DNA of 64,000 nucleotides from Crossiella sp. SN42 (GTDB lineage: Bacteria; Actinomycetota; Actinomycetes; Mycobacteriales; Pseudonocardiaceae). The stretch is from contig NZ_JAMHIV010000027.1 in the NCBI RefSeq assembly GCF_023897065.1, positions 62,001-126,000 of the forward strand, read 5' to 3'. This document shows positions 5,336 through 64,000 of this stretch, one piece after another. The notes below the pieces were generated by a model, which searched no databases, was not told where the DNA came from, and was given only the letters and a program-made list of their open reading frames with translations. Position 1 is the first letter of the stretch. Every line of letters starts with the position of its first letter. A program made the translations under genes and the position numbers.

Positions 5336-6241
5336 ATGTCGTCCGCGAAGAAGCTCACCCTCGGCGTGATCCTGCCGCCGATCCCCGCCACCGACCCGGC
5401 GCTGACCGTGCCCGCCGCCGCCCGCTTCGCCGAGGAGCTCGGCCTGGACGGGGTGTGGCAGGGCGACCACCTGGCCCCCGGCAGGCCCAGCCTGGACCTC
5501 GGCGTCGGCCTGGCCGCGGCCGCCGCGGCGACCACCAGGGTGCGCATCGGGGCCAGCGTGTTCGTGCCCGCGATCCGCCCGCTGGCCTGGGCGGCGAAGC
5601 TGGCCGCCAGTCTGCAGGAGGTCTCCGGCGGCAGGCTGGTGCTGGGCATCGGCTCCGGCGGCGGCGAGGCACAGTGGGCCGCGGCCGGCATCCCCTACGC
5701 CGAACGCGGCCCGCGCACCGACCGCGCGCTGACCCTGCTGCCCAGGCTGCTCTCCGGCGAGGCGGTGCCGCTGCCCGACGAGCCGGGCACGCCCGAGCTG
5801 GACCTCGCCGTGCGGGTGCCGGTGCCGCCGTTCTGGGTCGGCAACGACTCCCCGCCCGCGCTGCGCCGGGCCGCCCGGCTGGGCCAGGGCTGGTTCCCCT
5901 CGCTGGTGTCCCCGGACCGGGTGCGCGCGGGCCGGGCGCGGCTGGCCGAGCTGGCCGGGGACCGCCCGCTGCCCACCATCGCGGTCGGCGCGGTCTCCGC
6001 CCTCGGCGACGAACCGGGCCTGGCCGACCGCCACGGCATCGCCGAGCAGATCAGCCACGCCTACCAGCGGCCCGTGGCGGAGGTGCTGTCGGTGCCGCTG
6101 ACCGGCACTCCGGCCCAGGCCGCCGAGCAGCTGGCCGCCTACCGGGAGGCCGGGGCCGAGCACATCGTCTGCGGTTTCGCCGGTGGCGCCTGGCGGCGGC
6201 AGGCCGAGCTGCTGGCCGAGGCGGGCAGGCTGCTGGACTGA
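5336..6241 (+). CDS. LLM class flavin/F420-dependent oxidoreductase
   Basis: A 301-residue luciferase-like monooxygenase-superfamily protein with a TIM-barrel pattern. Visible markers are GVILPPIPATD at the first strand, EELGLDGVWQGDHL, TTRVRIGASVFVPAIRPLAWAAKLAASLQEVSGGRLVLGIGSG, and FWVGNDSPPALRRAARLGQGWFPS. The family is dominated in actinobacteria by F420-dependent reductases, but FMN cannot be excluded. The gene stands alone behind a MerR-like promoter, which suggests induction by redox or toxic small molecules. Confidence 0.85.
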   Translation: MSSAKKLTLGVILPPIPATDPALTVPAAARFAEELGLDGVWQGDHLAPGRPSLDLGVGLAAAAAATTRVRIGASVFVPAIRPLAWAAKLAASLQEVSGGRLVLGIGSGGGEAQWAAAGIPYAERGPRTDRALTLLPRLLSGEAVPLPDEPGTPELDLAVRVPVPPFWVGNDSPPALRRAARLGQGWFPSLVSPDRVRAGRARLAELAGDRPLPTIAVGAVSALGDEPGLADRHGIAEQISHAYQRPVAEVLSVPLTGTPAQAAEQLAAYREAGAEHIVCGFAGGAWRRQAELLAEAGRLLD

Positions 6242-6342
6242 CCTGACCGGGTGGCGCCACGCACCCGAACCGGCGACCGGGGCTGTCCCGCGCCGCCGCG
6301 ACCGGCTAACCAGGGAGACAACCCGGCCAGTCGGAGGAACCC

Positions 6343-6585
6343 ATGCGCAAGCCAGTGGCAACGGTCATCATCGCGGCGGCCCTGGGCGCGGCCCTGGCCA
6401 GTCCGGCGGCCGCCGAGCCCGCCGACGCCGAGGAGTGCGTGGCCTACGCGGTGTCCGAGGCGGACGCGGGTTTCCTGCTCGCGGACCTGGCCTGCTCCGC
6501 GGTCACGCTGATGGAGTGCTACCAGCTCTTCCGCGCCGAGTACGGGCCGCAGCTGTGGGCACTGACGGCCTGCGCGATGCGCTAG
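6343..6585 (+). CDS. Small secreted protein with four cysteines
   Basis: An 80-residue protein with a clear Sec signal peptide: MRKP, then the hydrophobic run VATVIIAAALGAALA, then an SPAAAEP cleavage region. The mature part of about 55 residues holds four Cys (ECVAYA, LACSAV, MECYQL, TACAMR), which could make two disulfides. GGAGG at 6333-6337 gives a proper Shine-Dalgarno. I do not recognise the family. Nothing in the neighbourhood explains it. Confidence 0.65.
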   Translation: MRKPVATVIIAAALGAALASPAAAEPADAEECVAYAVSEADAGFLLADLACSAVTLMECYQLFRAEYGPQLWALTACAMR

Positions 6586-6700
6586 GGCCGGTCCGCGCGG
6601 CCGGGCTGCTCCGGCTGGTCCCGGACGGCCCGGCGCCTCCGGCTCGCCCCCACGCCCTGGCTCCTCCGGCTGGCCCTTGCGTTCCCCCGGCCCGACTCCT

Positions 6701-6715
6701 AGCGTTGCAAACGCT
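6701..6715. promoter_or_regulatory. LacI-type operator upstream of the GH28 gene
   Basis: AGCGTTGCAAACGCT is a perfect palindrome with 6-base arms around GCA, and resembles LacI/GalR-family operators. It lies between a poor -35 (GACTCC, 6694-6699) and a TACATT -10 (6717-6722), so binding would block transcription of the glycosidase gene starting at 6808. Confidence 0.6.
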
Positions 6716-6807
6716 TACATTCTGTCCCAACTGAAAACCGCCGCCTCTTCGCAGCAGTCCCCGCTCCGCCACGCGGGCCCGTGGAACCGCATCGAGGAGA
6801 CCCGCTC

Positions 6808-8088
6808 ATGAACCGAACCTGGCGCTCCCGCCTGCTCGTCCTGGGCATCGCGGCCGCCACCACGCCGGCCGTGGCCACCCCAGTCCTGGCCGCCCCCGGC
6901 GCCACCTTCAACATCCGCGACTACGGCGCCAAGGGCGACGGCAAGGCCATCGACTCGCCCGCCATCGACAAGGCGATCAGCGCGGCCAGCGCCGCGGGCG
7001 GTGGTGTGGTCGAGGTGCCCGCCGGGACCTACCTGTCCCGGACCATCCACCTCAAGAGCGACATCACCATCAACCTGGCCGCCGGGTCGAAGATCATCGC
7101 GGCCGGCAGCGGCATGGACAAGCCGGAGCCCAACGAGTTCGACGACTACCAGGACTTCGGGCACAGCCACTTCCGCAACGCCCTGATCTGGGGCGAGCAC
7201 GTGTCCAACGTGCACTTCACCGGCGCCGGCGCGATCGACGGCGACAACAAGCTGGAGACCAGCAACACCCCGGCCGCCGGCGTCGCGGACAAGGCGATCT
7301 CACTGAAGTACTGCCAGAACGTCACCTTCACCGGCATCACCCTGCGCCAGGGCGGGCACTTCGCGGTGCTGGCCAACGGCTGCGACCGGATGCGCTTCAG
7401 CCGGGTCAAAATCCTCACCTCGGCGGACCGGGACGGAATCAACATCATCAACAGCTCGAACGTGGAGGTCGCCGACTCCCTGGTGGAGGCCAGCGACGAC
7501 GCGGTGGTGTTCAAGAGCGACTACGCGCTGGGCCGGACCTTCGTCAGCCGGCACAACGTGGTGCGCGACTCCACCATCAAGTCCACCGAGAACAACGCGC
7601 TCCAGTTCGGCTCGGAGACCTGCGGCGACTTCCGCGACCACCGGTTCAGCAACCTCAAGATCACCGGCGCGGGCAAGGCAGGGCTGGGCATCGTGTCCAT
7701 GGACGGCTCGGTGATCGAGGACATCCACTTCAACAACATCACCCTGACTCGCACCGCCGCGCCGATCTTCCTGCACGTGGGCAAGCGCTCGCGCTGCCCC
7801 GGCAAGCCACCGGCGGGCAAGATCCGGAACATCACCTTCACCGGCATCTCCGGCACGAACCTGACCTCGCCGACCACCGTGCCCGGCGGCCCCGAGCACA
7901 CCAGCACCATCACCGGCCGCACCGACTCGGCGATCGAGAACGTCAGCTTCACCAACGTCCGGCTGACCGTGCCCGGCAACCACCCCGCCTCGGACGCGAA
8001 CCGGGTGCCGCCGGAGAACAGCACCGAGTACCCGCCGCGGATCTTCGGCGTGCGGCCCTCCTTCGGCTTCTGGCTCCGGCACGCCTAG
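6808..8088 (+). CDS. GH28-like secreted glycoside hydrolase, cut short by an in-frame TAG
   Basis: The first 426 codons encode a signal peptide (RSRLLVLGIAAATTPAVATPVLA) and a right-handed beta-helix glycosidase of the polygalacturonase/rhamnogalacturonase group. Motifs include FNIRDYGAKGDGKAIDS, ADRDGINI with the paired acids ASDDAVVFKS, and GLGIVSMDGSVIEDI. These place the candidate catalytic acids at DGIN and DD. GAGGAGA at 6795 is the Shine-Dalgarno. The frame stops at TAG 8086-8088, yet the same frame continues with family-like beta-helix sequence for 71 codons. The protein made would lack its last coils. The cause could be a true nonsense mutation, a sequencing error or readthrough. A LacI-type operator lies upstream. 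Confidence 0.75.
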   Translation: MNRTWRSRLLVLGIAAATTPAVATPVLAAPGATFNIRDYGAKGDGKAIDSPAIDKAISAASAAGGGVVEVPAGTYLSRTIHLKSDITINLAAGSKIIAAGSGMDKPEPNEFDDYQDFGHSHFRNALIWGEHVSNVHFTGAGAIDGDNKLETSNTPAAGVADKAISLKYCQNVTFTGITLRQGGHFAVLANGCDRMRFSRVKILTSADRDGINIINSSNVEVADSLVEASDDAVVFKSDYALGRTFVSRHNVVRDSTIKSTENNALQFGSETCGDFRDHRFSNLKITGAGKAGLGIVSMDGSVIEDIHFNNITLTRTAAPIFLHVGKRSRCPGKPPAGKIRNITFTGISGTNLTSPTTVPGGPEHTSTITGRTDSAIENVSFTNVRLTVPGNHPASDANRVPPENSTEYPPRIFGVRPSFGFWLRHA

Positions 8089-53792: not shown

Positions 53793-54044
53793 CTGTTGTG
53801 TCCTTTCTCAGGGGCCGCCGGGTCCCCACCAGCCGTACAACGGGGTGAACCGGAGCCTTATTCCGACCTGTGAGTATGCCAGGTCTTCGGGGGTGCTCTC
53901 GCCGTGGGACCGCTCACCTCCAGAAACCGACCTCCGGGCGCAATGGCCGGACCATCGGGCGCATTGCCAGCGCAGACTGCTGTTATCGGTGACTGCGAGC
54001 AGCACACTGACCACGTGCTGTGTGCAGCGAGCTGGCGGCTTCCC

Positions 54045-54419
54045 ATGCGGACCTGGCTGGGCATCCCGCTGCTGGTCATCGGGTCGATGATCGGCATCGG
54101 CGGTCTGGGCCTGCTCGCGGTCGGCTCCCCCACCGAGCTGTTCAGCGCCATGTTCGGCGTCGGCGCCGCGATGGGCGTGCTCACCAGCCGCAACATCGCC
54201 TGGCGGGCGTCCTGGCAGCGGCACGGCCTGCGCTGGCCCTACCTCATCGCGGTGGTGGCCGCCGGGGTCGCGCTGGACGGGGTCGAGCTGCCCTCCGGGC
54301 TGGCGGTGGCCATCGGCGTGCCCTGCCTGCTGCTGCTCGTGCGCACCCTGCGCCAGCTGCAGACCGTGGACCCCGACGGCGGCTGCGCCGAGACCAGGGA
54401 CCTGATCAGCTCCACCTAG
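54045..54419 (+). CDS. Small membrane protein, function unknown
   Basis: A 124-residue protein with about four hydrophobic segments (WLGIPLLVIGSMIGIGGLGLL, LFSAMFGVGAAMGVL, YLIAVVAAGVALDG and LAVAIGVPCLLLLVRTL) and a polar C-terminal tail. No domain is recognised. The ATG at 54045 begins the first span. A strong hairpin terminator follows its stop. Confidence 0.65.
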   Translation: MRTWLGIPLLVIGSMIGIGGLGLLAVGSPTELFSAMFGVGAAMGVLTSRNIAWRASWQRHGLRWPYLIAVVAAGVALDGVELPSGLAVAIGVPCLLLLVRTLRQLQTVDPDGGCAETRDLISST

Positions 54420-54497: not shown

Positions 54498-55760
54498 TCA
54501 GCCGTCCCAGCGCTTGGCGACCAGCACCGCGTTGTGCCCGCCGAAGCCGAAGGAGTTGCTCATCGCGTACCGCACCTCGTGCTCCTGCGGCGCGTTGGCC
54601 ACGAAGTTCATCTCCGCGTCCAACGGCTGGTGCAGGTTCATCGTGGGCGGCACGATCCCGGTGCGCATGGCGAACCCGCAGGCGATCAGCTCGACCGCGC
54701 CCGCCGCGCCGATCATGTGCCCGGTCATCGACTTGGTGGAGCTGACCGGGATCTTGGTGGCGTGCTCGCCGAGGACCTGCCGGATGGCGAAGGTCTCGGT
54801 CTTGTCGTTGAGCTCGGTGCTGGTGCCGTGCGCGTTGATGTAGTCGATCTGCTCCGGCGCGATGCCCGCGTCGGCCAGCGCCCGGCTCATCGCGCGCACC
54901 GCGCCCGCCGCCTCCGGGTGCGGGGCGGTCCAGTGGTGCGCGTCGGAGGTCGCCGCGTAACCGACCACCTCGGCCAGGATCGGCGCGCCCCGGCGCAGCG
55001 CGTGGTCCAGCGACTCCAGCACGACCACCCCGGCGCCGGCGGCCATGATGAAGCCGTCCCGCTCGGCGTCGAAGGGCCTGCTGGCCCGCTCCGGGTCGTC
55101 GTTGCGCCGGGACAGCGCCCTGGCGTTGGAGCTGGAGGCGATGTCCAGCGGGGTGACGCTCATCTCGGTGCCACCGGCGATGACCACGTCGGCCTCGCCG
55201 TACTGGATCCACCTGGTCGCGGTGCCGATGGCGTCGGTGCCGGTGGCGCAGGCCGCGCTGATCGCCAGCGTCGGGCCCGCCGCGCCGAACATCAGGCTGA
55301 CCTCACCGGTGGGCGAGTCGTGCGCGCCGGTGATCGCCTGGTAGGCGCCGACCGCGCGGCCGCCCTTCTCCTGCAACAGCTTCACCGAGTCCTGCATGTA
55401 CTTCATCGCGCCGTAGCCGGTGCCCAGCAGCACGCCGGTGCGCGGCGCCAGCTCGCTGTCGATGGTCAGCTTGGCCGACTCCACCGCCTGGATCGAGGCG
55501 GCCACCCCGTACTGGGCGAACAGGTCCATCCGCCTGCTGAGCTTGCGTGGCATGTGGTCCTCGGCGACGAAACCCTTGACCTCACCGGCGATCTGGGTCG
55601 GGAAGGGTTCGGCGTCGAAGGTGGTGATCCGGGCGATCCCGCTGCGCCCGGCCATGAACGCGGCCCAGGTGTCCTCCGCGGTCAGGCCGACCGGGCTGAT
55701 GGCTCCCCAGCCGGTGACGACGACCCTGGGCCGCCGCTTCCTGAACTCCTCTACCGACAT
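54498..55760 (-). CDS. Beta-ketoacyl-ACP synthase II-like (FabF family)
   Basis: A 420-residue ketosynthase. The active-site Cys171 is in SAACATGTDAIG, with His311 in YINAHGTSTELND and Lys343/His348 in SSTKSMTGHMIGAAG, so the Cys-His-His set for decarboxylative condensation is intact. Its length and GTGYGAMKYMQ pattern fit FabF. It starts 30 bases after the ligase-reductase fusion stop on the same strand, with a GAGGTGGAG ribosome-binding region. No ACP, ketoreductase or acyltransferase gene is near, so it probably works on acyl-ACP from fatty-acid synthesis or on a product of its operon partner. Confidence 0.88.
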   Translation of the reverse strand: MSVEEFRKRRPRVVVTGWGAISPVGLTAEDTWAAFMAGRSGIARITTFDAEPFPTQIAGEVKGFVAEDHMPRKLSRRMDLFAQYGVAASIQAVESAKLTIDSELAPRTGVLLGTGYGAMKYMQDSVKLLQEKGGRAVGAYQAITGAHDSPTGEVSLMFGAAGPTLAISAACATGTDAIGTATRWIQYGEADVVIAGGTEMSVTPLDIASSSNARALSRRNDDPERASRPFDAERDGFIMAAGAGVVVLESLDHALRRGAPILAEVVGYAATSDAHHWTAPHPEAAGAVRAMSRALADAGIAPEQIDYINAHGTSTELNDKTETFAIRQVLGEHATKIPVSSTKSMTGHMIGAAGAVELIACGFAMRTGIVPPTMNLHQPLDAEMNFVANAPQEHEVRYAMSNSFGFGGHNAVLVAKRWDG

Positions 55761-55790: not shown

Positions 55791-58421
55791 TCAGGCGTTG
55801 GCCATCCGGTTCTTGCGGGCTGCCGGCAGGTGCTCGGCGACGGCCTTGGAGATCAGCAGCGGCTCGGCCACCCGCTGCCCCTGGTACGCCACGTAGTTCG
55901 CGGCCACGCCGTACCCGCCGAACGGCTTGTTGCCGTCGTCGGTGTCCAGCACGGTCAGGTTCACCGACACGATGTGCCGCTTGCCCAGTGCCGCGACCAC
56001 GTCGGGCGCGTCGCCGTAGACCATCGCCCCCATCGCCCGCTCGTTGACCGTGGGGTGGTTGGCGAAGGCGCGCAGCTGCTGGGTGTTCTGGTAGATCACC
56101 ACGTTGAAGATCGGGGCGAAGGTCTCCTCGATCGGCATCTTCTTGTTGTAGGGCCGCACCAGGACCGCGGGCTCCAGGTGCCGGGAGCGGAAGTCCAGCC
56201 GCCCGCCGGCCACGATGTGCTCGCGGTTGAGCCGCAGGTAGTCCGCGGCCGCCTCGATCGCGGTCTCGTAGTACAGCGGGCCGTAGTCCGCGCCGGGGTC
56301 GGTGTAGCTGCCGTAGCGCAGCTCGGAGACCCGCTTGGTGAGCTGGTCCACGAAGGCGTCGGCCTCGTTGGCGTGCACCAGGAACACGTCGGGGGCGAAG
56401 CAGTCCTGGCCGGAGTTGAGCATCCGGATGCGCACCGCGTCGGTGACCGCGAGGTCGATGTCCGCGCCCTCGGTCACGATGAACGGGTTCACGCCCTGGC
56501 CGAAGAACAGCAGCATCTGGTCATCGCGCAGCTCGGCGCGGACCAGCTCGGCGTTCTGGTACGCGCCGGTGAACACCAGCACGTCCGCCTCGGCCACCGG
56601 CACCTCGACGAACTGCCGCTGGCTCAACGTGGTCAGCTCGATGTTGTCCAGCTTGTGCACCGGCGCGAGCAGCTCGTGCAGCCGCTTGGTGGTGCCGGTG
56701 ACCTGGCTGGACGGCCGGAAGATGATCTCGTCGGTGTACAGCGACGGGATCAGCGTGTAGAGCACGTAGGAGTAGAACAACACGTTGGAGGACATGAAGA
56801 CCGCCATCTTCGGCACCCGGCCGGGGCGGTAGGCCGAGACCTCCGACAGCGCGCCCTCCAGCGCGCTCAGCCCGGCCTCGACCTCGTCGAGCACGGCCTT
56901 GTGGTTGGAGATCTCGGTCAGCACGTCGATCAGCGGCTGCGGGTCGCTGCGGATGAACTCGGCCACCGCGCGCAGGGCGGCCAGCCGCTGCGGGTGCGGC
57001 ACCGCGGCCAGGTCGGTGAGCCGGGTCAGGTCGGGCTTTCCGTTGTTGTTCAACGGGAACTCGGTGACCACCAGCACCTGGTTGGGCTGCTCGTAGGAGG
57101 GCAGCAGCGCGCAGATCTTCTCCCGCCAGTAGCGGGCCTCGCGCAGTTCCGGGTCGGCCACCACGAACACCAGCTGGCTGCCCCGGCGCTCGTCGTCCAG
57201 CGCGACCACCTTGACCGGCGCGCCGGCCTCCTCGGCCTTGCGCGCCAAGGCTTCCGGGTAGAGCGTGTGGCCCATCCGGTGCACCGCGTACTTGCGCCCC
57301 ACCACGTAGAGGTTGCCCTCGGCGTCGGTGTAGCCGATGTCGTTGGTGCGGTAGACGTCCTCGGTGTGCTCGGTGACCGAGCCGTCCGCGGCCAGGTAGC
57401 CGGTGAGCTGGCCCGGCGAGCTGACCAGGATCTCGCCGATCTCGCCCGGTGGGACCGCGTTGCCGTCCTCGTCCAGGATCCGCACCACCACCCCGTCCAG
57501 CGGCTGGCCGCAGCCGACCGCGTTGCCGGGGGCGGCCAGCGCGATGTTGCCGACCTCGGTGCTGCCGTAGCCGTCCAGCAGGGGCTGGCCGGTGGCCGCG
57601 ATGAACTTCTCCGCCAGCGCGCGGTCCAGCGGCGCGCCGCCCACGCACCACATCCGCACGTCCCGCAGGCTCGCCGCCGACTCCGGCCTGCGCTCCACCA
57701 GCTTCAACATGGTGTGGTAGGTCGCGGGGGTCGCGTCCACCACGGTCGCCCGGTAGCGCCCCGCCATGTCGACCGCGTGGTCCAGGCGGGCGTACGGCGC
57801 CACGATCAGCGAGCAGCGGGCCACCCACCACAGCAGCACGAGCGAGAGCCCGTACTGGTGGGAGAAGGGCAGCAGCGGCATGAGGACGTCGGCCTCGGTG
57901 TAGTTCATCCGCTGCTGGGTGCGCTCGATGTTGCCCAGGAACGAACGACCGGAGCGGACGATGCCCTTGGGCTCGCCGGTGGTGCCCGAGGACCAGGCGA
58001 TCAGCGCGTCCGGCCGGGTGAACCAGTCCACAAAGGACAGTGAGCCGCCGAGCGCGGGGATCGACTGCGCCTCTTCCAGCAACCCGTCCAGGCTGATCAC
58101 GTGGTCGGGGTCCAGCACCGTCAGGTCCTTGCTGACCTCAGGGCGCACCAGCGCCCAGCCCGCCCTGGCGAAGGCGGTGATGCGCGCGGTCTCCTCCGGC
58201 GTCTGCCGGTGGTCCACCAGCACGATCGAGGTGTCCAGGTGCACCAGGGCCAGGAGCACGGTGACGTACCCGGCCGAGTTGTCCGCCTTGAGGATCACCC
58301 GGCTGCCTGGACACAGCCCTCGTGCGCGCAGCGCCGCGGCCACCCGCAGCGCGTCCTGCTCGACCTCTGCCGCCGATCGCACGGAGTTCGCTGTCACCAA
58401 CCTGGCTGCCACAGGTTCCAC
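55791..58421 (-). CDS. Acyl-AMP ligase fused to an aldehyde-dehydrogenase-type acyl reductase domain
   Basis: An 876-residue fusion. Residues 1 to about 470 are an ANL adenylating enzyme with complete core motifs: AWSSGTTGEPKG (142-153), DGYGSTEVG (283-291), YRTNDIG (357-363), and the catalytic Lys462 in NNNGKPDLTRL. Residues about 500-876 are an aldehyde-dehydrogenase-fold domain: IIFRPSSQ where VVFKPS is usual, nucleophile Cys674 in MLNSGQDCFAPDV, EETFAPIF at 765-772, and KPFGGYG at 832. The LELGG motif with the general-base Glu is replaced by LLFFGQG (637-643), so acid formation by hydrolysis is unlikely. An activated acyl group reduced to an aldehyde, as LuxE plus LuxC do, is the best guess. 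No carrier-protein domain is present. Confidence 0.8.
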   Translation of the reverse strand: MEPVAARLVTANSVRSAAEVEQDALRVAAALRARGLCPGSRVILKADNSAGYVTVLLALVHLDTSIVLVDHRQTPEETARITAFARAGWALVRPEVSKDLTVLDPDHVISLDGLLEEAQSIPALGGSLSFVDWFTRPDALIAWSSGTTGEPKGIVRSGRSFLGNIERTQQRMNYTEADVLMPLLPFSHQYGLSLVLLWWVARCSLIVAPYARLDHAVDMAGRYRATVVDATPATYHTMLKLVERRPESAASLRDVRMWCVGGAPLDRALAEKFIAATGQPLLDGYGSTEVGNIALAAPGNAVGCGQPLDGVVVRILDEDGNAVPPGEIGEILVSSPGQLTGYLAADGSVTEHTEDVYRTNDIGYTDAEGNLYVVGRKYAVHRMGHTLYPEALARKAEEAGAPVKVVALDDERRGSQLVFVVADPELREARYWREKICALLPSYEQPNQVLVVTEFPLNNNGKPDLTRLTDLAAVPHPQRLAALRAVAEFIRSDPQPLIDVLTEISNHKAVLDEVEAGLSALEGALSEVSAYRPGRVPKMAVFMSSNVLFYSYVLYTLIPSLYTDEIIFRPSSQVTGTTKRLHELLAPVHKLDNIELTTLSQRQFVEVPVAEADVLVFTGAYQNAELVRAELRDDQMLLFFGQGVNPFIVTEGADIDLAVTDAVRIRMLNSGQDCFAPDVFLVHANEADAFVDQLTKRVSELRYGSYTDPGADYGPLYYETAIEAAADYLRLNREHIVAGGRLDFRSRHLEPAVLVRPYNKKMPIEETFAPIFNVVIYQNTQQLRAFANHPTVNERAMGAMVYGDAPDVVAALGKRHIVSVNLTVLDTDDGNKPFGGYGVAANYVAYQGQRVAEPLLISKAVAEHLPAARKNRMANA

Positions 58422-58486: not shown

Positions 58487-59118
58487 ACGCGCGATTGCCT
58501 ACCGGAGTGTCAATGCGTTACTTTTGATCACGTTGTGTGTCGGCCCGCTGACGGTGGGTTCCCACCCGGGTCAGCAACCCCAGTTCCTCGTGACCCGCCA
58601 CCGGTCACGGTTCCGAGCCATCAATTCCAGCATTGGTCGGAACACCCACTCAAATTACCGGGGGACCGTCGCGTTTCGACAATGAGAACTTTCTGACGTT
58701 CTTCCGGCTGGATAAAACTTCCTGAAGCAAGTACCGGCGCGAGGGCCCCGCGACCGTCCGCACTCGATCGGCGCCTGAGGTACCGCTCGATGGAGGCAGT
58801 CCGCCACCCGCGTCTGCGGAGAACCGCCATACCCGTCCTGATCTGCCCCGATCACCGGACGTCCGGCCCGCTGGGCCGCCCGGACCGGCAGACCGGCGTT
58901 GACGGGGCAGGCTCGTCCTACCTAGTCCGGTTCACGTCGGGACTAAGCCGTACAGCCCATTAAGCACCCGGCTGAACGGATCAGTCAACCCCGTTCGCGT
59001 GTCCCGGAGAGTGTGCAATGCGACCCGCTGACACACATCGCGTTAACTCCGGCAAACCTTTCCCTCGCCCTTGCGACCGACACGAAGTCTATTATTGAAC
59101 AGACGACCGAATTCCCCG

Positions 59119-59133: not shown

Positions 59134-59474
59134 ACGTCAAGCCTGTGCAAAGTGTGTCGGCGAATAGCCCACTGCCGGGCGGAAGAACGTGAACCCGCCA
59201 CCGGCCCCGCGCGGCCTCCTCGGACCGGGCCCCCGGCGGCGCGCACCGGGCTGACCAGGCGCCTCCCACCTGCACGGAAGCGCGGACACCGCGGGCCGGG
59301 CGACCGGCGGCCCGGGGACTGCACGGACGAGGCTGGAAGTCCAGCGGCGGCACCGCTGTGGATCAGCGAAGTGAGAGTCGGGCACGTTGCGCCCGCGGGC
59401 CCGCAAGGCGGTCGAAGCGGACGCGCCGGGGTACGAGATGTCGATGCGGGCGCGGGATCGGCCCTGGCATAGGT

Positions 59475-59511
59475 CGGGGGATGCTCCCGGTCGCGGCGAG
59501 AGCATCCCCCG
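59475..59511 (-). terminator. Hairpin terminator of the lanthipeptide operon
   Basis: CGGGGGATGCTC (59475-59486) pairs perfectly with GAGCATCCCCCG (59500-59511), a 12-bp stem with a 13-base loop, beginning 25 bases after the stop of the precursor peptide gene. Confidence 0.8.
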
Positions 59512-59535
59512 ATGGCACACACGGTGTGCGGTGGA

Positions 59536-59640
59536 TCACCAGCAGATCAGCAGACTCAGGGTGCTGATCAGGCCCATGCCGAGCTCGGCAGAGCCGTCGA
59601 CCTCGGCAGGTTCGATGGCCTGCAGGTCAAGAACGTCCAT
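59536..59640 (-). CDS. Class III lanthipeptide precursor (LanA)
   Basis: A 34-residue peptide encoded 8 bases after lanKC. GGGGAGGTGA, which includes the lanKC stop codon, is its ribosome-binding site. The leader begins MDVLDLQAIEPAEVDG, with the LDLQ motif (residues 4-7) that class III synthetases such as AmfT and RamC recognise. The C-terminal part is ELGMGLISTLSLLICW. It holds Ser26, Ser29 and Cys33, the S-x2-S-x3-C motif that gives a labionin or a lanthionine, and then one Trp. There is only this single ring motif, making the core unusually short and hydrophobic. Leader cleavage site is unknown. Confidence 0.85.
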   Translation of the reverse strand: MDVLDLQAIEPAEVDGSAELGMGLISTLSLLICW

Positions 59641-59648
59641 CCGGGTTG

Positions 59649-62204
59649 TCACCTCCCCTCGCGCACTCGGCCGAACAGGGGCAACGCCCCGGTGGCCACG
59701 GTGTGCAGCGCGAGCAGCACACCCGCCGATCCGGTGGCGAGATCGTGGGACAGCCGCAGCAGCGCGTCGCCGGGGAAGGCCAGGCCGCCGCCGTGCGGCA
59801 CCGCGTGCCAGGCCAGCCTGCTGACGTGCCGGTGCAGCGCGGCGTCCAGCTGATCGGAGTCGACCTCGGGCAGGCCGCGGAGCGCGGCGAGCGCGCAGAC
59901 CAGCCCGGCCCGGCCGGTGAACAGCCCGCTGTGCACGGTGAACTCGGCTTCCAGCGCCCTGCGCACCGAGGGCAGCGCGCCGAGGAACACCGGGTCCGGC
60001 CGCCGCCGCAACAGCTCGGCCATGGCGATGGCGATGCCCGCGGTGCCCGCGGCCAGATAGGGCAGCAGCTTGCGGCCCGCGCGCACGTGCAGCGCGCCGG
60101 CGGCGGTCAGCTCGGCGTGCTGGAGGTCCCGGTGCAGCGCGGTGCCCGCCGCGTCCAGCAGCCGGTCCGGGCCGCCCTCGGCGTGCGCGTGGCTGAGGAA
60201 CAGCGCCGCGCCCGCGCCGCCGCGGCTGAGCCCCGGCAGCCCGAACGGGACCGCCTCCACCCCGGCGAGCACCCGGCCCGCCACCCGGTCGGCGAGGTCC
60301 AGACCCCATTCGGTGAGCCAGCTCCGGCCGACCGTGCGGCCCAGGTGCAGCAGGGTCAGCCCGATGCCGGAGAGACCTTCGTACAGGTCCGCGCCCGCGC
60401 AGGCCTCGGTGCTCGCGGCGGCCCGCTCTACCAGCTCCAGCGCGGTCCCGGTGTGCCCGAACTCGGCCAGCACCAGCGCGATGCCGTGCCGTCCGGCGAA
60501 CAGGCCGGGCCGGCCCGCGCCGCGCCGGATCAGCGCGCGCAGCAGCCAGTCCTCGAACTCGGGGAAGCGCCCGCAACCGCTGGTGTGCAAGGCGTGCAGC
60601 ACCCCGGCCGCGCCGTGCGCCAGGCCGAGCCCGTCCTCGGCGAACTGGGCGATGTCACCCGGGAAGAGCCGGTCGCTGCGCTGCGGGGTGGCCGAGGCCA
60701 GGATCGCCGCGGTGATCCGCTCGCGCAGCCGGTCCAGGTCAGCCGGTCCGGTCGGGAACATCGGCGGCACCGCCTCCGCGGCCTCCGGCGGCGGCACCGA
60801 GCCCGCGCAGAGCCGGTCGAGGATGGGCCGCACGTACTCCGGCGGCACCGGGAACCGGGCCAGCACGGCCGCGCACAGCGAGCGGACCTTGCCGGGTGCC
60901 AAGGCGCACAACGAGTTCAGCGGCAGGAACAGCGCGAGCCGGAGCGCGGCCAGCGCGTAGTGGTCCACGTCGAAGCCGCCGACGCCGGGCGGCGCGGTGT
61001 AGCCGGGCGCGCCCAGCGGCGGCCGGGTCGCCGCGTCCACCGGTGCGGCCAGCTCGAAGTCCAGCAGGGTCACCCGGCCGTCCGGGCCGACCATCACGTT
61101 GTTCGGGTGCAGGTCGCCGAAGACCACGCCACGCTCGTGCAGCGCGGCCACCGCGGCGGTGACCTTGTCCACGATCTCCAGCGCCCACCGGGTGTACGAG
61201 GCCACCTCGGCCTCGTCCGCGGCCGCCCCGGCCAGCGGGTAGCGGCGGACCAGCTCGGTGGCCAGCGGCACGCCCTCGACGTGGCTGAGCGCGAGGAACT
61301 CGTGCTCCCAGCAGCGGAACCGGCCCAGCACCTCGGGCACGCCGGGCAGTCCGGCCAGCAGGGTGAGCATGTCGTGCTCGTTGGCCAGCCGGTGCACCGC
61401 GTCGTGGCCGTCGGTGTCCAGCCCGGCGTGCGGGCGGCCCTCCTTGAGCACCACGGTGCGCCCGGTCGCCGGCTCCTCGGCCAGGTAGACCCCGCCCGCG
61501 TTGGAGAAGTGCAGCGGGCGCAGCACCCGGTAGGGCAGCGCGGCCCTGGCCCGGCGACGGTCCAGGTGCGGTCGCAGCACCTCCGGGATGGCCACCCAGG
61601 ACGGCGGGCTGAACCGGGGGCCGCGCTCATCCGGCACCAGGTTGCCCTCGGGGTCGGCCAGCGCGGGCACCAACTCGCCGCGCGCCGACTGGCAGTACCG
61701 CTCGGTGAAGGCGCCGTAGCGCACGTAGAGCGGGCCCTCGCCGAAGCGCAGGTCGTTGAGGATGTACGGGCCGGGCCGCCCGGCCAGCCGGGGGCCGAGC
61801 CTGCGCAGCTGACGGGTCAGCTCGGTCTCGTCGGCCGGGTAGAGCGTGATGAACTTGCCGCTGGAGCCGCGGGCGGCGTACTTGGCGTTGTGCGCGAGCA
61901 CCGCGGCCCTGCTGTCCAGGAACTTGAACGGCACCCGGTGCAGCAGGCAGTCCTCGGCCACCGCCGCCAGCACCTCGGCCGCGCCGTCGGGGGTGGCCGA
62001 GACGTGGATCTTCCAGCCCTGCTCGGGCGTGGCCGCGCCCCTGGGGTGCAGCATCACCCAGGACTCCCGCCTGCTGCGCCGCCACTGCGGCGGCAGCGGC
62101 GCGCTGACCAGCGGGTACCGCTCGACCGCGGCGGTGCGGTGGGCCGGCGAGTCGTAGAAGTAGCGGTCGACGAAACAATACTTCTCATATTCGACTTCAA
62201 TCAT
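59649..62204 (-). CDS. lanKC: Class III lanthionine synthetase LanKC
   Basis: An 851-residue three-domain enzyme. Residues 1 to about 215 are the phosphoserine/threonine lyase domain (start VEYEKYCFVDRYFYD). Residues about 225-490 are a Ser/Thr kinase domain with Lys254 (VVLKEG), the catalytic loop VVFGDLHPNN (360-369) and the DFE motif (382-384). Residues about 500-851 are a LanC-like cyclase domain (GLAHGAAGVLHAL, FAGRHGIALVL, YEGLSGIG) that lacks the Cys-Cys-His zinc ligands, which defines class III. It phosphorylates precursor Ser, eliminates phosphate and closes the rings. GGGGAGGTG precedes the ATG, with an inverted repeat just upstream. Confidence 0.93.
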   Translation of the reverse strand: MIEVEYEKYCFVDRYFYDSPAHRTAAVERYPLVSAPLPPQWRRSRRESWVMLHPRGAATPEQGWKIHVSATPDGAAEVLAAVAEDCLLHRVPFKFLDSRAAVLAHNAKYAARGSSGKFITLYPADETELTRQLRRLGPRLAGRPGPYILNDLRFGEGPLYVRYGAFTERYCQSARGELVPALADPEGNLVPDERGPRFSPPSWVAIPEVLRPHLDRRRARAALPYRVLRPLHFSNAGGVYLAEEPATGRTVVLKEGRPHAGLDTDGHDAVHRLANEHDMLTLLAGLPGVPEVLGRFRCWEHEFLALSHVEGVPLATELVRRYPLAGAAADEAEVASYTRWALEIVDKVTAAVAALHERGVVFGDLHPNNVMVGPDGRVTLLDFELAAPVDAATRPPLGAPGYTAPPGVGGFDVDHYALAALRLALFLPLNSLCALAPGKVRSLCAAVLARFPVPPEYVRPILDRLCAGSVPPPEAAEAVPPMFPTGPADLDRLRERITAAILASATPQRSDRLFPGDIAQFAEDGLGLAHGAAGVLHALHTSGCGRFPEFEDWLLRALIRRGAGRPGLFAGRHGIALVLAEFGHTGTALELVERAAASTEACAGADLYEGLSGIGLTLLHLGRTVGRSWLTEWGLDLADRVAGRVLAGVEAVPFGLPGLSRGGAGAALFLSHAHAEGGPDRLLDAAGTALHRDLQHAELTAAGALHVRAGRKLLPYLAAGTAGIAIAMAELLRRRPDPVFLGALPSVRRALEAEFTVHSGLFTGRAGLVCALAALRGLPEVDSDQLDAALHRHVSRLAWHAVPHGGGLAFPGDALLRLSHDLATGSAGVLLALHTVATGALPLFGRVREGR

Positions 62205-62256: not shown

Positions 62257-62365
62257 ACCCTACCCCGCCGCAAATGTTTCTCAATAGCCCACGCGGTCTA
62301 CCTTTTCCGCCACGAAAGTCGCGCACCCGTTCTGGCGTGCAACTTTAGTCGCAAGCAATCCGTTG

Positions 62366-63043
62366 CTACTCGGGGGAAATCGAGACCAGCCCGGTCCGGT
62401 ATGCGAAGATGGCCAGCTGAACACGATTGTCCAGGTCCAGCTTGGCCAGCACCCTGGTCACCCGGCTCTTGACCGAGGACTCGGTGGTGTCCAGCTTTTC
62501 CGCAATCGCGGCATTGGACCAACCGGTGGCCACCAACTTCACCACATCGATCTCCCGCTCGCCAAGCAGGTCAATTCCCTTGGCGACCGCCGGATCGGGT
62601 TGCACCATCCGGTGCACGGTGTGCTCGATCAGGCGCAGGGTCACCGCGGGCGAGAGCATCGCATCGCCGCGGGAGACCACCCGGACCGCGTGCGCCAGCT
62701 CATCCGGCGAGGTGTCCTTGCGCAGGAACCCGCTCGCTCCGGCGGCCAGCGCGGAGTAGACGTGGAAGTCGGAGTCGAAGGTGGTCAGCATCAGCACCCT
62801 GGGCCGGGGCGCGGGCCCGGTCCACTCGCCGAGCAGCCGCCGGGTGGCCGCGATGCCGTCCAGCTCGGGCATCCGCACGTCCATCAGCACCACGTCGGGG
62901 CACAGCTCGGCCGCCCTGGCCAGCGCCGCGCCGCCGGTGGCCGCCTCGCCCACCACTTCCAGGTCCTCGCGCAGCGAGAGCAGGGTGGACAGCCCCGCCC
63001 TGACCACCGCGTCGTCGTCGACGAGCAGCAGGCGAATGGTCAC
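62366..63043 (-). CDS. NarL/FixJ-type two-component response regulator
   Basis: A 225-residue response regulator. The receiver domain opens IRLLLVDDDAVVRAGLSTLL, has the phosphoacceptor Asp55 in VVLMDVRMPELDG and the conserved Lys in GFLRKDTSPDEL. The C-terminal LuxR-type helix-turn-helix is LLGEREIDVVKLVATGWSNAAIAEKL. Its GTG overlaps the TGA of the histidine kinase gene. It lies just upstream of lanKC on the same strand, as RamR-type regulators lie by the SapB genes, so it probably controls lanKC-lanA. Confidence 0.92.
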   Translation of the reverse strand: MTIRLLLVDDDAVVRAGLSTLLSLREDLEVVGEAATGGAALARAAELCPDVVLMDVRMPELDGIAATRRLLGEWTGPAPRPRVLMLTTFDSDFHVYSALAAGASGFLRKDTSPDELAHAVRVVSRGDAMLSPAVTLRLIEHTVHRMVQPDPAVAKGIDLLGEREIDVVKLVATGWSNAAIAEKLDTTESSVKSRVTRVLAKLDLDNRVQLAIFAYRTGLVSISPE

Positions 63044-64000
63044 GAGGCGCTCCGCAGCGGGATCCGCGCGTCCACCACGTAACCGCCGTCCGGCGCGGCC
63101 GCCGAGCTCAGCTCACCGCCCAGCCTGGCCACCCTGGCCTGCATGCTGAGCAGGCCGAGCCCGCTGCCCGGCACCGAGGGCAGCCGGGCCGCCCTCGGCG
63201 GCTCGTTGACCACCCGCAGCCGCAGCGCGTCCGCCTCGGCGTCCACGCCCACCTCGATGCTCACCCTGGTCGGCGAGGCGTGCTTGACCACGTTGGTCAG
63301 CGCCTCCTGGAGCACCAGGAAGCCCTCCGCGCCGACCTCGCGGCTCATCGAGCGCGGCAGCTCGGCCACCGAGAACTCCACGTCGTTGCCCGCGTTGCGC
63401 ACCGCCGAGGCCAGCCGGGTCACCCCCTCCGGCCCACAGTCGGCCCCTTCGGGCGCGTCGGCGATCCCGCGCAGCAGGTTCTGCAGCCGGACCATCTCGG
63501 TCATCGCCTGCCTGCTGGACTCGCGGATCTGGTTGGCCGCCAGCACCGCCTGCGGGTCCCGCCTGGCCAGCAGCTCCTCGAAGACGTGCGTCTGCACCGA
63601 CAGCGCGCTGAGGTGGTTGCCCACCACGTCGTGCAGGTCCAGCGCGATCCGCTCGCGTTCGGCGCCCACCGCCGAGCGCACCTCGCGGGTGCGCCGCTCG
63701 CGCTGCCGGTGCACGCTGCGGCGCAGCGAGCCCACGTGCGCGGCGAAGCGGTGCTGGTGGCTGCCGATCAGGTAGGCCAGGCCCACCGCCAGCGCCGCCA
63801 CCAGCCAGTCCGCCAGCTGGATCTGCGCGGTGTACATCAGGCTGACCACCACCGCGTGCGCGCCGCCCCAGCCGGCCACCACCCAGGCCACCCAGGGCCG
63901 GTGCCGCCGGGCGCCGTAGCGGCCCAGCGCGTGCGCGGCGACGAACAGCGGGATCACCCCGGTCGCCTCCGGCGCGCCGATCGCCGCCCTGGCCAGCACC
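63040..64000 (-). CDS. NarL-type sensor histidine kinase, N terminus missing
   Basis: The gene runs in from beyond the right edge; 319 residues are visible. Two or three membrane spans are present (VIPLFVAAHALGRYG, VAWVVAGWGGAHAVVVSLMY and WLVAALAVGLAYLIG). The HisKA_3 domain has the phosphoacceptor His in ERIALDLHDVVGNHLSALSV, and the HATPase domain has FLVLQEALTNVVKHA and SGLGLLSMQARVARLGGEL. It pairs with the overlapping response regulator (GTGA junction). The signal is unknown. Confidence 0.92.
   Translation of the reverse strand, partial: VLARAAIGAPEATGVIPLFVAAHALGRYGARRHRPWVAWVVAGWGGAHAVVVSLMYTAQIQLADWLVAALAVGLAYLIGSHQHRFAAHVGSLRRSVHRQRERRTREVRSAVGAERERIALDLHDVVGNHLSALSVQTHVFEELLARRDPQAVLAANQIRESSRQAMTEMVRLQNLLRGIADAPEGADCGPEGVTRLASAVRNAGNDVEFSVAELPRSMSREVGAEGFLVLQEALTNVVKHASPTRVSIEVGVDAEADALRLRVVNEPPRAARLPSVPGSGLGLLSMQARVARLGGELSSAAAPDGGYVVDARIPLRSAS

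Follow-up and report, generated by a model that had tools for sequence, protein, structure and literature searches.

The closest described relatives of the locus considered here are the SapB (RamS/RamC/RamAB/RamR) and AmfS systems. Their characterised members usually carry two tandem SxxSxxxC motifs, and an ABC exporter is usually encoded in the locus. According to the available portion of one report (PMC13380574), the SapB/AmfS family includes more than 4000 sequences, and the ring type can hardly be predicted from the synthetase. Class III peptides can also derive from simpler precursors. The class III bacinapeptins and paenithopeptins arise from precursors with one S-x2-S-x2-5-C motif, and most class III clusters are without protease genes, as stated in the accessible sections of PMC8960859. 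Furthermore, andalusicin has three residues in its labionin ring (PMC10604976, in part), there are one-ring class III peptides that bear acyl tails, and the acylated lipolanthine nocaviogua consists of eight residues (both from excerpts of PMC10435860). Another partly accessible source (PMC11251773) predicts 179 single-cysteine precursors, recognises no characterised single-cysteine lanthipeptides besides the lipolanthines, and cautions against false positives. Finally, lanthipeptide clusters with fatty-acid genes are described for all four classes in the available text of PMC7268733.

Here we describe a locus of the soil bacterium Crossiella sp. SN42 (genome size 9.7 Mb) that very probably produces a member of this class. 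The window, by which we mean the whole 64,000-nucleotide stretch of DNA analysed, carries the locus toward its right edge. The minus-strand order is histidine kinase, response regulator, a 161-bp gap, lanKC, lanA, and a hairpin. Beyond the hairpin there is a 1.1-kb spacer, followed by an AMP-ligase/acyl-reductase fusion gene and a FabF ketosynthase gene, all on the minus strand. This lanthipeptide island is flanked by rho and prfA and, as read from translations, has housekeeping surroundings, with thrB, thrC, and the homoserine dehydrogenase gene to the right and ATP synthase genes to the left. The earlier note on this DNA had the locus continuing past the right edge of the window. This is true of the histidine kinase gene, which runs on for 311 nt, after which rho and other genes follow. 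Our literature search found no paper on the window precursor. The available text of PMC9415966 mentions a Crossiella class III cluster that has one core gene and is listed for two cave strains exclusively; it may or may not be the window locus.

The lanKC gene (59649-62204, minus strand) encodes a protein of 851 amino acids with a RamC N-terminal domain, a kinase domain, and a LanC-like cyclase (RamC_N, Pkinase, and LANC_like matches). It scores 995 bits against the class III equivalog NF038151 (cut-off 575) and 400 bits against the class IV model, which is under the cut-off of 650, and the earlier assignment to class III is borne out by this pair of results. The kinase loop GDLHPNN and the DFE motif are retained. 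Zinc cyclases carry CHG. The cyclase region of LanKC carries GRAG at what we take to be the position of CHG in those enzymes and, because the class IV model also stays under its cut-off, the cyclase appears to be without zinc ligands and of class III rather than class IV.

Directly after lanKC lies lanA (59536-59640, minus strand), whose product of 34 amino acids is MDVLDLQAIEPAEVDGSAELGMGLISTLSLLICW. The peptide has an LDLQ leader, a single S-x2-S-x3-C motif formed by Ser26, Ser29, and Cys33, and a C-terminal Trp34; Thr27 is a possible further dehydration site. A Shine-Dalgarno-like GGGGAGG (59652-59658, minus strand) abuts the lanKC stop codon TGA (59649-59651), 11 nt before the ATG, and GGGGAGGTGA is kept in all five Crossiella genomes compared. 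Thus, the gene is as the earlier note had depicted it, from its place and ribosome-binding site to its leader, lone ring motif, and terminal Trp. LanA scores 30.6 bits against the Pfam RamS family PF19402 (cut-off 24.3) and 29.9 bits against the NCBIfam SapB/AmfS model NF033212 (cut-off 25). The latter alignment stops at model position 31 of 42, and LanA holds one SxxSxxxC motif only, with no second one in tandem.

The gene for a synthetase need not lie next to that for its substrate. Accordingly, the 34-codon open reading frame (ORF) might be a chance occurrence, and LanKC might act on a precursor located elsewhere, but we find this scarcely credible. An ORF of the lanA pattern appeared in 0 of 20000 mononucleotide shuffles of a 260-nt stretch on the lanA strand, both profile scores exceed their cut-offs, and the gene is conserved in 5/5 genomes of the genus; lanA is therefore more than a product of chance. 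We consider it very probable that this is a class III lanthipeptide locus in which LanKC modifies Ser26, Ser29, and Cys33.

The genus comparison covered five Crossiella genomes, including that of the window. An orthologous lanKC is present in all of them; relative to the window, identity in the other genomes is 98, 87, 87, and 75%, and the lanKC-lanA order between rho and prfA is the same. The earlier note had made its proposal depend on conservation of the peptide gene next to orthologous lanKC genes, and lanA does stand beside lanKC in 5/5. Its product varies in the middle in both sequence and length. In contrast, the ten-residue C-terminal stretch ISTLSLLICW is invariant, and Cys followed by Trp ends the peptide in every genome.

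A hidden second ring encoded after the lanA stop codon was also considered. The RamS profile crossed the TGA in 3/5 genus genomes in the genome search, and the in-frame codons after it read STAHRVC in the window and STAHSVC, HTAHPVC, HTAHHVC, and TTAHLVC in the others, so that T-A-H-x-V-C is readable in 5/5, with Thr and Cys kept in all five and Ser in two. We took the untranslated reading instead, as the DNA there forms a small hairpin preceding the main hairpin, and one genome (G002) has a 2-nt insertion. A read-through tail on LanA is unlikely. Likewise, the strongly diverged spacer between lanA and the fusion gene contains no conserved small ORF, by eye, that could serve as a second precursor.

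The main hairpin after lanA (59476-59510, minus strand) is a 35-nt sequence identical in 5/5 genomes. For the 71-nt stretch 59466-59536 around this sequence, the folding energy is -40 kcal/mol (z -5.2), and 0 of 200 shuffles folded as well. It is a probable terminator, albeit one without a T tract. On the other side of lanKC, between it and the response regulator gene, two 14-bp sites in inverted orientation are separated by a 16-bp spacer (62309-62352, minus strand). The spacing is 16 bp in 5/5 genomes while the spacer sequence varies, and the first site is identical throughout; the second is conserved to within one base, differing in G002. In a scan of the 9.7-Mb genome with exact patterns, the half-site GCSACKAAAGTYGC has no match beyond these two, and the pair is found once, before lanKC. 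Because the sites are found only before lanKC and are conserved, a pathway-specific operator is supported, and we regard the paired sites as a probable operator on the strength of these sequence features. It seems reasonable to propose that they are bound by the neighbouring NarL/LuxR-type response regulator, a probable pathway regulator (62366-63043, minus strand; Response_reg and GerE domains). This gene adjoins that of a sensor histidine kinase (HisKA_3 and HATPase_c; 423 amino acids in total), which occupies 63040-64000 of the minus strand plus the 311 nt past the edge and is complete as an ORF at 6041-7312 of the right-flank stretch (L009).

Several of these features are shared with SapB and AmfS, namely the matches to PF19402 and NF033212 above cut-off, the LDLQ leader, a LanKC beside its precursor, and a LuxR-type regulator nearby. 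The window locus differs in having one ring motif rather than two, in the absence of any ABC exporter seen, in a regulator that adjoins its own kinase gene, and in the terminal Trp. Because there is one motif only, we class the product as a class III lanthipeptide and not as a SapB-type two-ring morphogen. Bacinapeptins and paenithopeptins (Pre_24) resemble the window locus in their class III synthetase and one-motif core, and their proteases too are often outside the cluster. They differ in that they come from Firmicutes, that the ptt cluster has a methyltransferase gene and several precursors, and that paenithopeptins have an extra disulfide ring (all from the accessible sections of PMC8960859).

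Relatives were sought in 297 genomes drawn evenly from the family. At least 137 of these contain RamS-family precursors and at least 156 contain a lanKC at E<=1e-100. Outside the genus, lanKC identity is at most 53% among the matches listed, and the orthologue therefore looks restricted to Crossiella in this sample. We fetched 20 loci with RamS matches, 17 for a short or stop-crossing match and three for a near-full one; further short matches in two genomes (G024 and G246) were outside this set. Among the 17, 16 hold a precursor with one S-x2-S-x3-C motif and one (L080) gave no candidate by pattern, while the near-full matches gave one two-motif precursor (L071) and two loci with no candidate by pattern (L081 and L083). 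The proportion of 16 in 20 is no measure of frequency because short or stop-crossing matches were the ground for selecting 17 of the loci. The 16 loci (within L064-L082) belong to four other genera of the family, g3 (13 loci), g5, g15, and g37, where single-motif precursors are thus not rare. Like LanA, their precursors have an LDLQ or LELQ leader and one motif and lie near lanKC where the contig shows it. They differ from the window locus in that 11/16 have an ABC-type ORF nearby and that several precursors carry extra Cys residues or His/Asp-rich linkers. Such linkers (e.g., DDHGHGHG) stand before the ring motif in g3 precursors of L065, L067, L068, L069, L072, L076, and L077, and they are possibly metal-binding.

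A tree of LanKC sequences places the five window-type enzymes on a branch of their own (100/100), apart from the g3 single-motif loci and nine GNAT-linked rows. A long-branched row from the genus (L149) joins this branch and may be misplaced. The tree has long branches and covers 35 of 41 loci; L071, L075, L076, L077, L078, and L080 were left out for want of a lanKC piece with 500 aligned residues.

These comparisons alter what the earlier note had made of the product. It had been taken for a one-ring peptide of a predicted 12-16 residues, smaller than characterised members, which normally have two ring motifs. Single-motif class III products are already known, namely bacinapeptins and paenithopeptins (PMC8960859), andalusicin (PMC10604976), and lipolanthines (PMC10435860), and a one-ring product outside the characterised range is therefore not supported by the available text of these sources; the eight residues of nocaviogua (PMC10435860, same excerpts) likewise speak against the size claim. 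Nor is a single ring new to the surroundings, given the precursors of the four other genera and the 27-residue single-motif precursors beside a second lanKC in the same genome.

The absence of a local exporter and protease, which the earlier note had remarked on, was upheld. A screen for ABC genes by strict Walker A and signature motifs found no ORF in the window or in the 12.9 kb to its right (L009), no RamAB-type exporter was encountered in the locus, and no protease gene is present among the identified neighbours. Elsewhere in the genome, 27 proteins match a lanKC-linked Prauserella transporter, and because they reach just 29-37% identity, none can be named as the exporter. The same motif screen gave the 11/16 figure above, and in a two-ring Prauserella locus (L012) an ABC-type ORF directly follows the precursor. 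Five of the single-motif loci are ABC-negative: L073, L078, and L079 have enough flank and no ABC ORF, while L067 and L077 end at most about 1.2 kb past the precursor. Because single motifs recur, mostly with an ABC ORF nearby, the missing exporter is the odder trait of the window locus.

It could be argued that a locus lacking both the second motif and an exporter is a decaying SapB/AmfS system, whose peptide became a nonfunctional relic once the second ring and RamAB had been lost. However, one ring does not imply decay, because 11/16 single-motif loci have an ABC-type ORF nearby. Moreover, the last 11 lanA codons show synonymous changes only, except for a Leu-to-Met change before Ile25 in G002, and the LDLQ motif, operator, hairpin, and LanKC reading frame are all kept across the five genomes. 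We therefore judge decay to be very unlikely.

The two genes beyond the spacer raise another alternative. The fusion protein (55791-58421, minus strand) combines an AMP-ligase with an aldehyde-dehydrogenase-type acyl reductase (AMP-binding and Aldedh matches), and 30 bp after it comes the FabF-type ketosynthase gene (54498-55760, minus strand; TIGR03150 at 538 bits, cut-off 493.75). Between FabF and prfA there is also a plus-strand ORF of 171 amino acids (53904-54419), 65-96% identical within the genus and without an NCBIfam match. Upstream of the fusion gene, a block at 58640-58720 (core 58686-58706) is near-identical in five genomes within the otherwise diverged spacer. It contains AGAAC-N8-GTTCT and is a probable operator/promoter of the fusion-FabF pair. 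No operator shared by lanKC and the fusion gene was detected: the lanKC operator was not found before the fusion gene even with two mismatches allowed, and the two upstream regions have no 9-mer in common.

The product might be acylated and lipolanthine-like if the fusion and FabF proteins supplied a fatty acyl group or an aldehyde for attachment to the one-ring peptide. Acyl-tailed one-ring class III peptides (PMC10435860) and fatty-acid genes in lanthipeptide clusters (PMC7268733) offer precedents, at least in the available text of both. In particular, the lipolanthines (microvionin, nocavionin, goadvionins, and nocaviogua) share with the window locus a single-motif class III core and fatty-acid-type genes near lanKC, but their avionin ends in a modified C-terminal Cys (PMC10435860, excerpts), whereas Trp follows Cys in LanA. 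We compared 42 loci. Both halves of the fusion are present in 26, and 11 of these also have lanKC within the stretch (up to 20 kb). Three (L010, L011, and L146) had been fetched via lanKC, and 8/23 is the fairer count; in two of the 26 (L151 and L152), the halves are encoded apart, and FabF stands between the two or next to them. On the other hand, 15/26 fusion loci are without lanKC in the stretch compared. Fusion and FabF do keep the same strand and order in the four other Crossiella genomes, but synteny confined to one genus counts as a single event, and a functional link to the adjoining window locus rests on adjacency in that one genus. Furthermore, the diverged spacer and the hairpin part the two gene sets, the lanKC operator does not recur before the fusion gene, and a conserved block peculiar to the fusion gene lies upstream of it. 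Lipolanthines require LanD. No LanD decarboxylase or acyl-joining enzyme was found among the called genes scanned from prfA to rho, and neither a decarboxylase nor a joining acyltransferase was recognised beside the window locus. Taken together, these observations make an acylated product improbable.

Most lanKC-positive fusion loci belong to a distinct type, marked by a GNAT-like gene and by precursors of roughly 27 amino acids arranged in tandem. This type includes the second lanKC locus of the SN42 genome (L010 7510-15000, contig C56), in which 27-residue single-motif precursors lie beside lanKC. FabF and a GNAT-like gene are also present there, as is a gene whose weak resemblance to acyltransferases stays below the Pfam cut-off. 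Loci with lanKC, a GNAT-like gene, and the fusion are L010, L116-L119, L127, L133, L135, and L146, and their tandem precursors follow the pattern M(A/S)ILDLQ...GSTxSxxC. FabF is found in L010, L116-L119, and L146, and MFS genes were seen in L010 and L116. Additional L116 genes encode a ThDP enzyme, a ribonucleotide-reductase-small-chain-like protein, and a short-chain dehydrogenase, and its MFS genes number two. The ThDP-dependent enzyme is located between fusion and FabF (L116 6934-8568), as it is in L115 (11037-12785, from a reading of the translation), which is without lanKC. Perhaps this ThDP-fusion-FabF cassette makes an independent aldehyde- or acyloin-type unit.

The recurring GNAT-type loci look like a family of acylated class III lanthipeptides. 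A literature search for GNAT- or ligase-linked class III clusters found none, only a preprint on a class II peptide. One could go further and unite these loci with the fusion and FabF genes beside the window locus as an undescribed acylated class III branch, of which the window locus would be the minimal, Cys-Trp-ended form. This we consider improbable. The genes named in the window locus include no GNAT, and its lanKC falls outside the GNAT-linked clade.

The most likely reading is that the window holds a SapB/AmfS-type locus pared down to the regulators, the synthetase, and the precursor, and equipped with a two-component switch of its own. From this, we infer its regulation, ring chemistry, maturation, and function as follows. 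The histidine kinase and response regulator would respond to a signal, and the regulator would probably bind the paired operator and turn on transcription of lanKC and lanA as a single unit as far as the hairpin. LanKC would then bind the LDLQ leader and phosphorylate and eliminate Ser26 and Ser29, and perhaps Thr27. The dehydrated serines would be joined to Cys33 in one labionin or lanthionine ring, and a protease and an exporter encoded elsewhere would complete the maturation and secretion of a short, hydrophobic peptide with one ring. This product most likely serves its own producer, on the surface or as a signal, instead of acting as a potent antibiotic, and membership of the family makes a developmental or surface role plausible.

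In chemical terms, the product would add a member to a known class. Its interest lies in the locus, a compact, genus-conserved test case in which a synthetase and its 34-residue substrate come with a kinase/regulator pair and an operator that has a single exact match in the genome. Such a system would allow one to ask whether a single ring is enough for morphogen activity, and how a peptide of this kind may be exported without a local RamAB.
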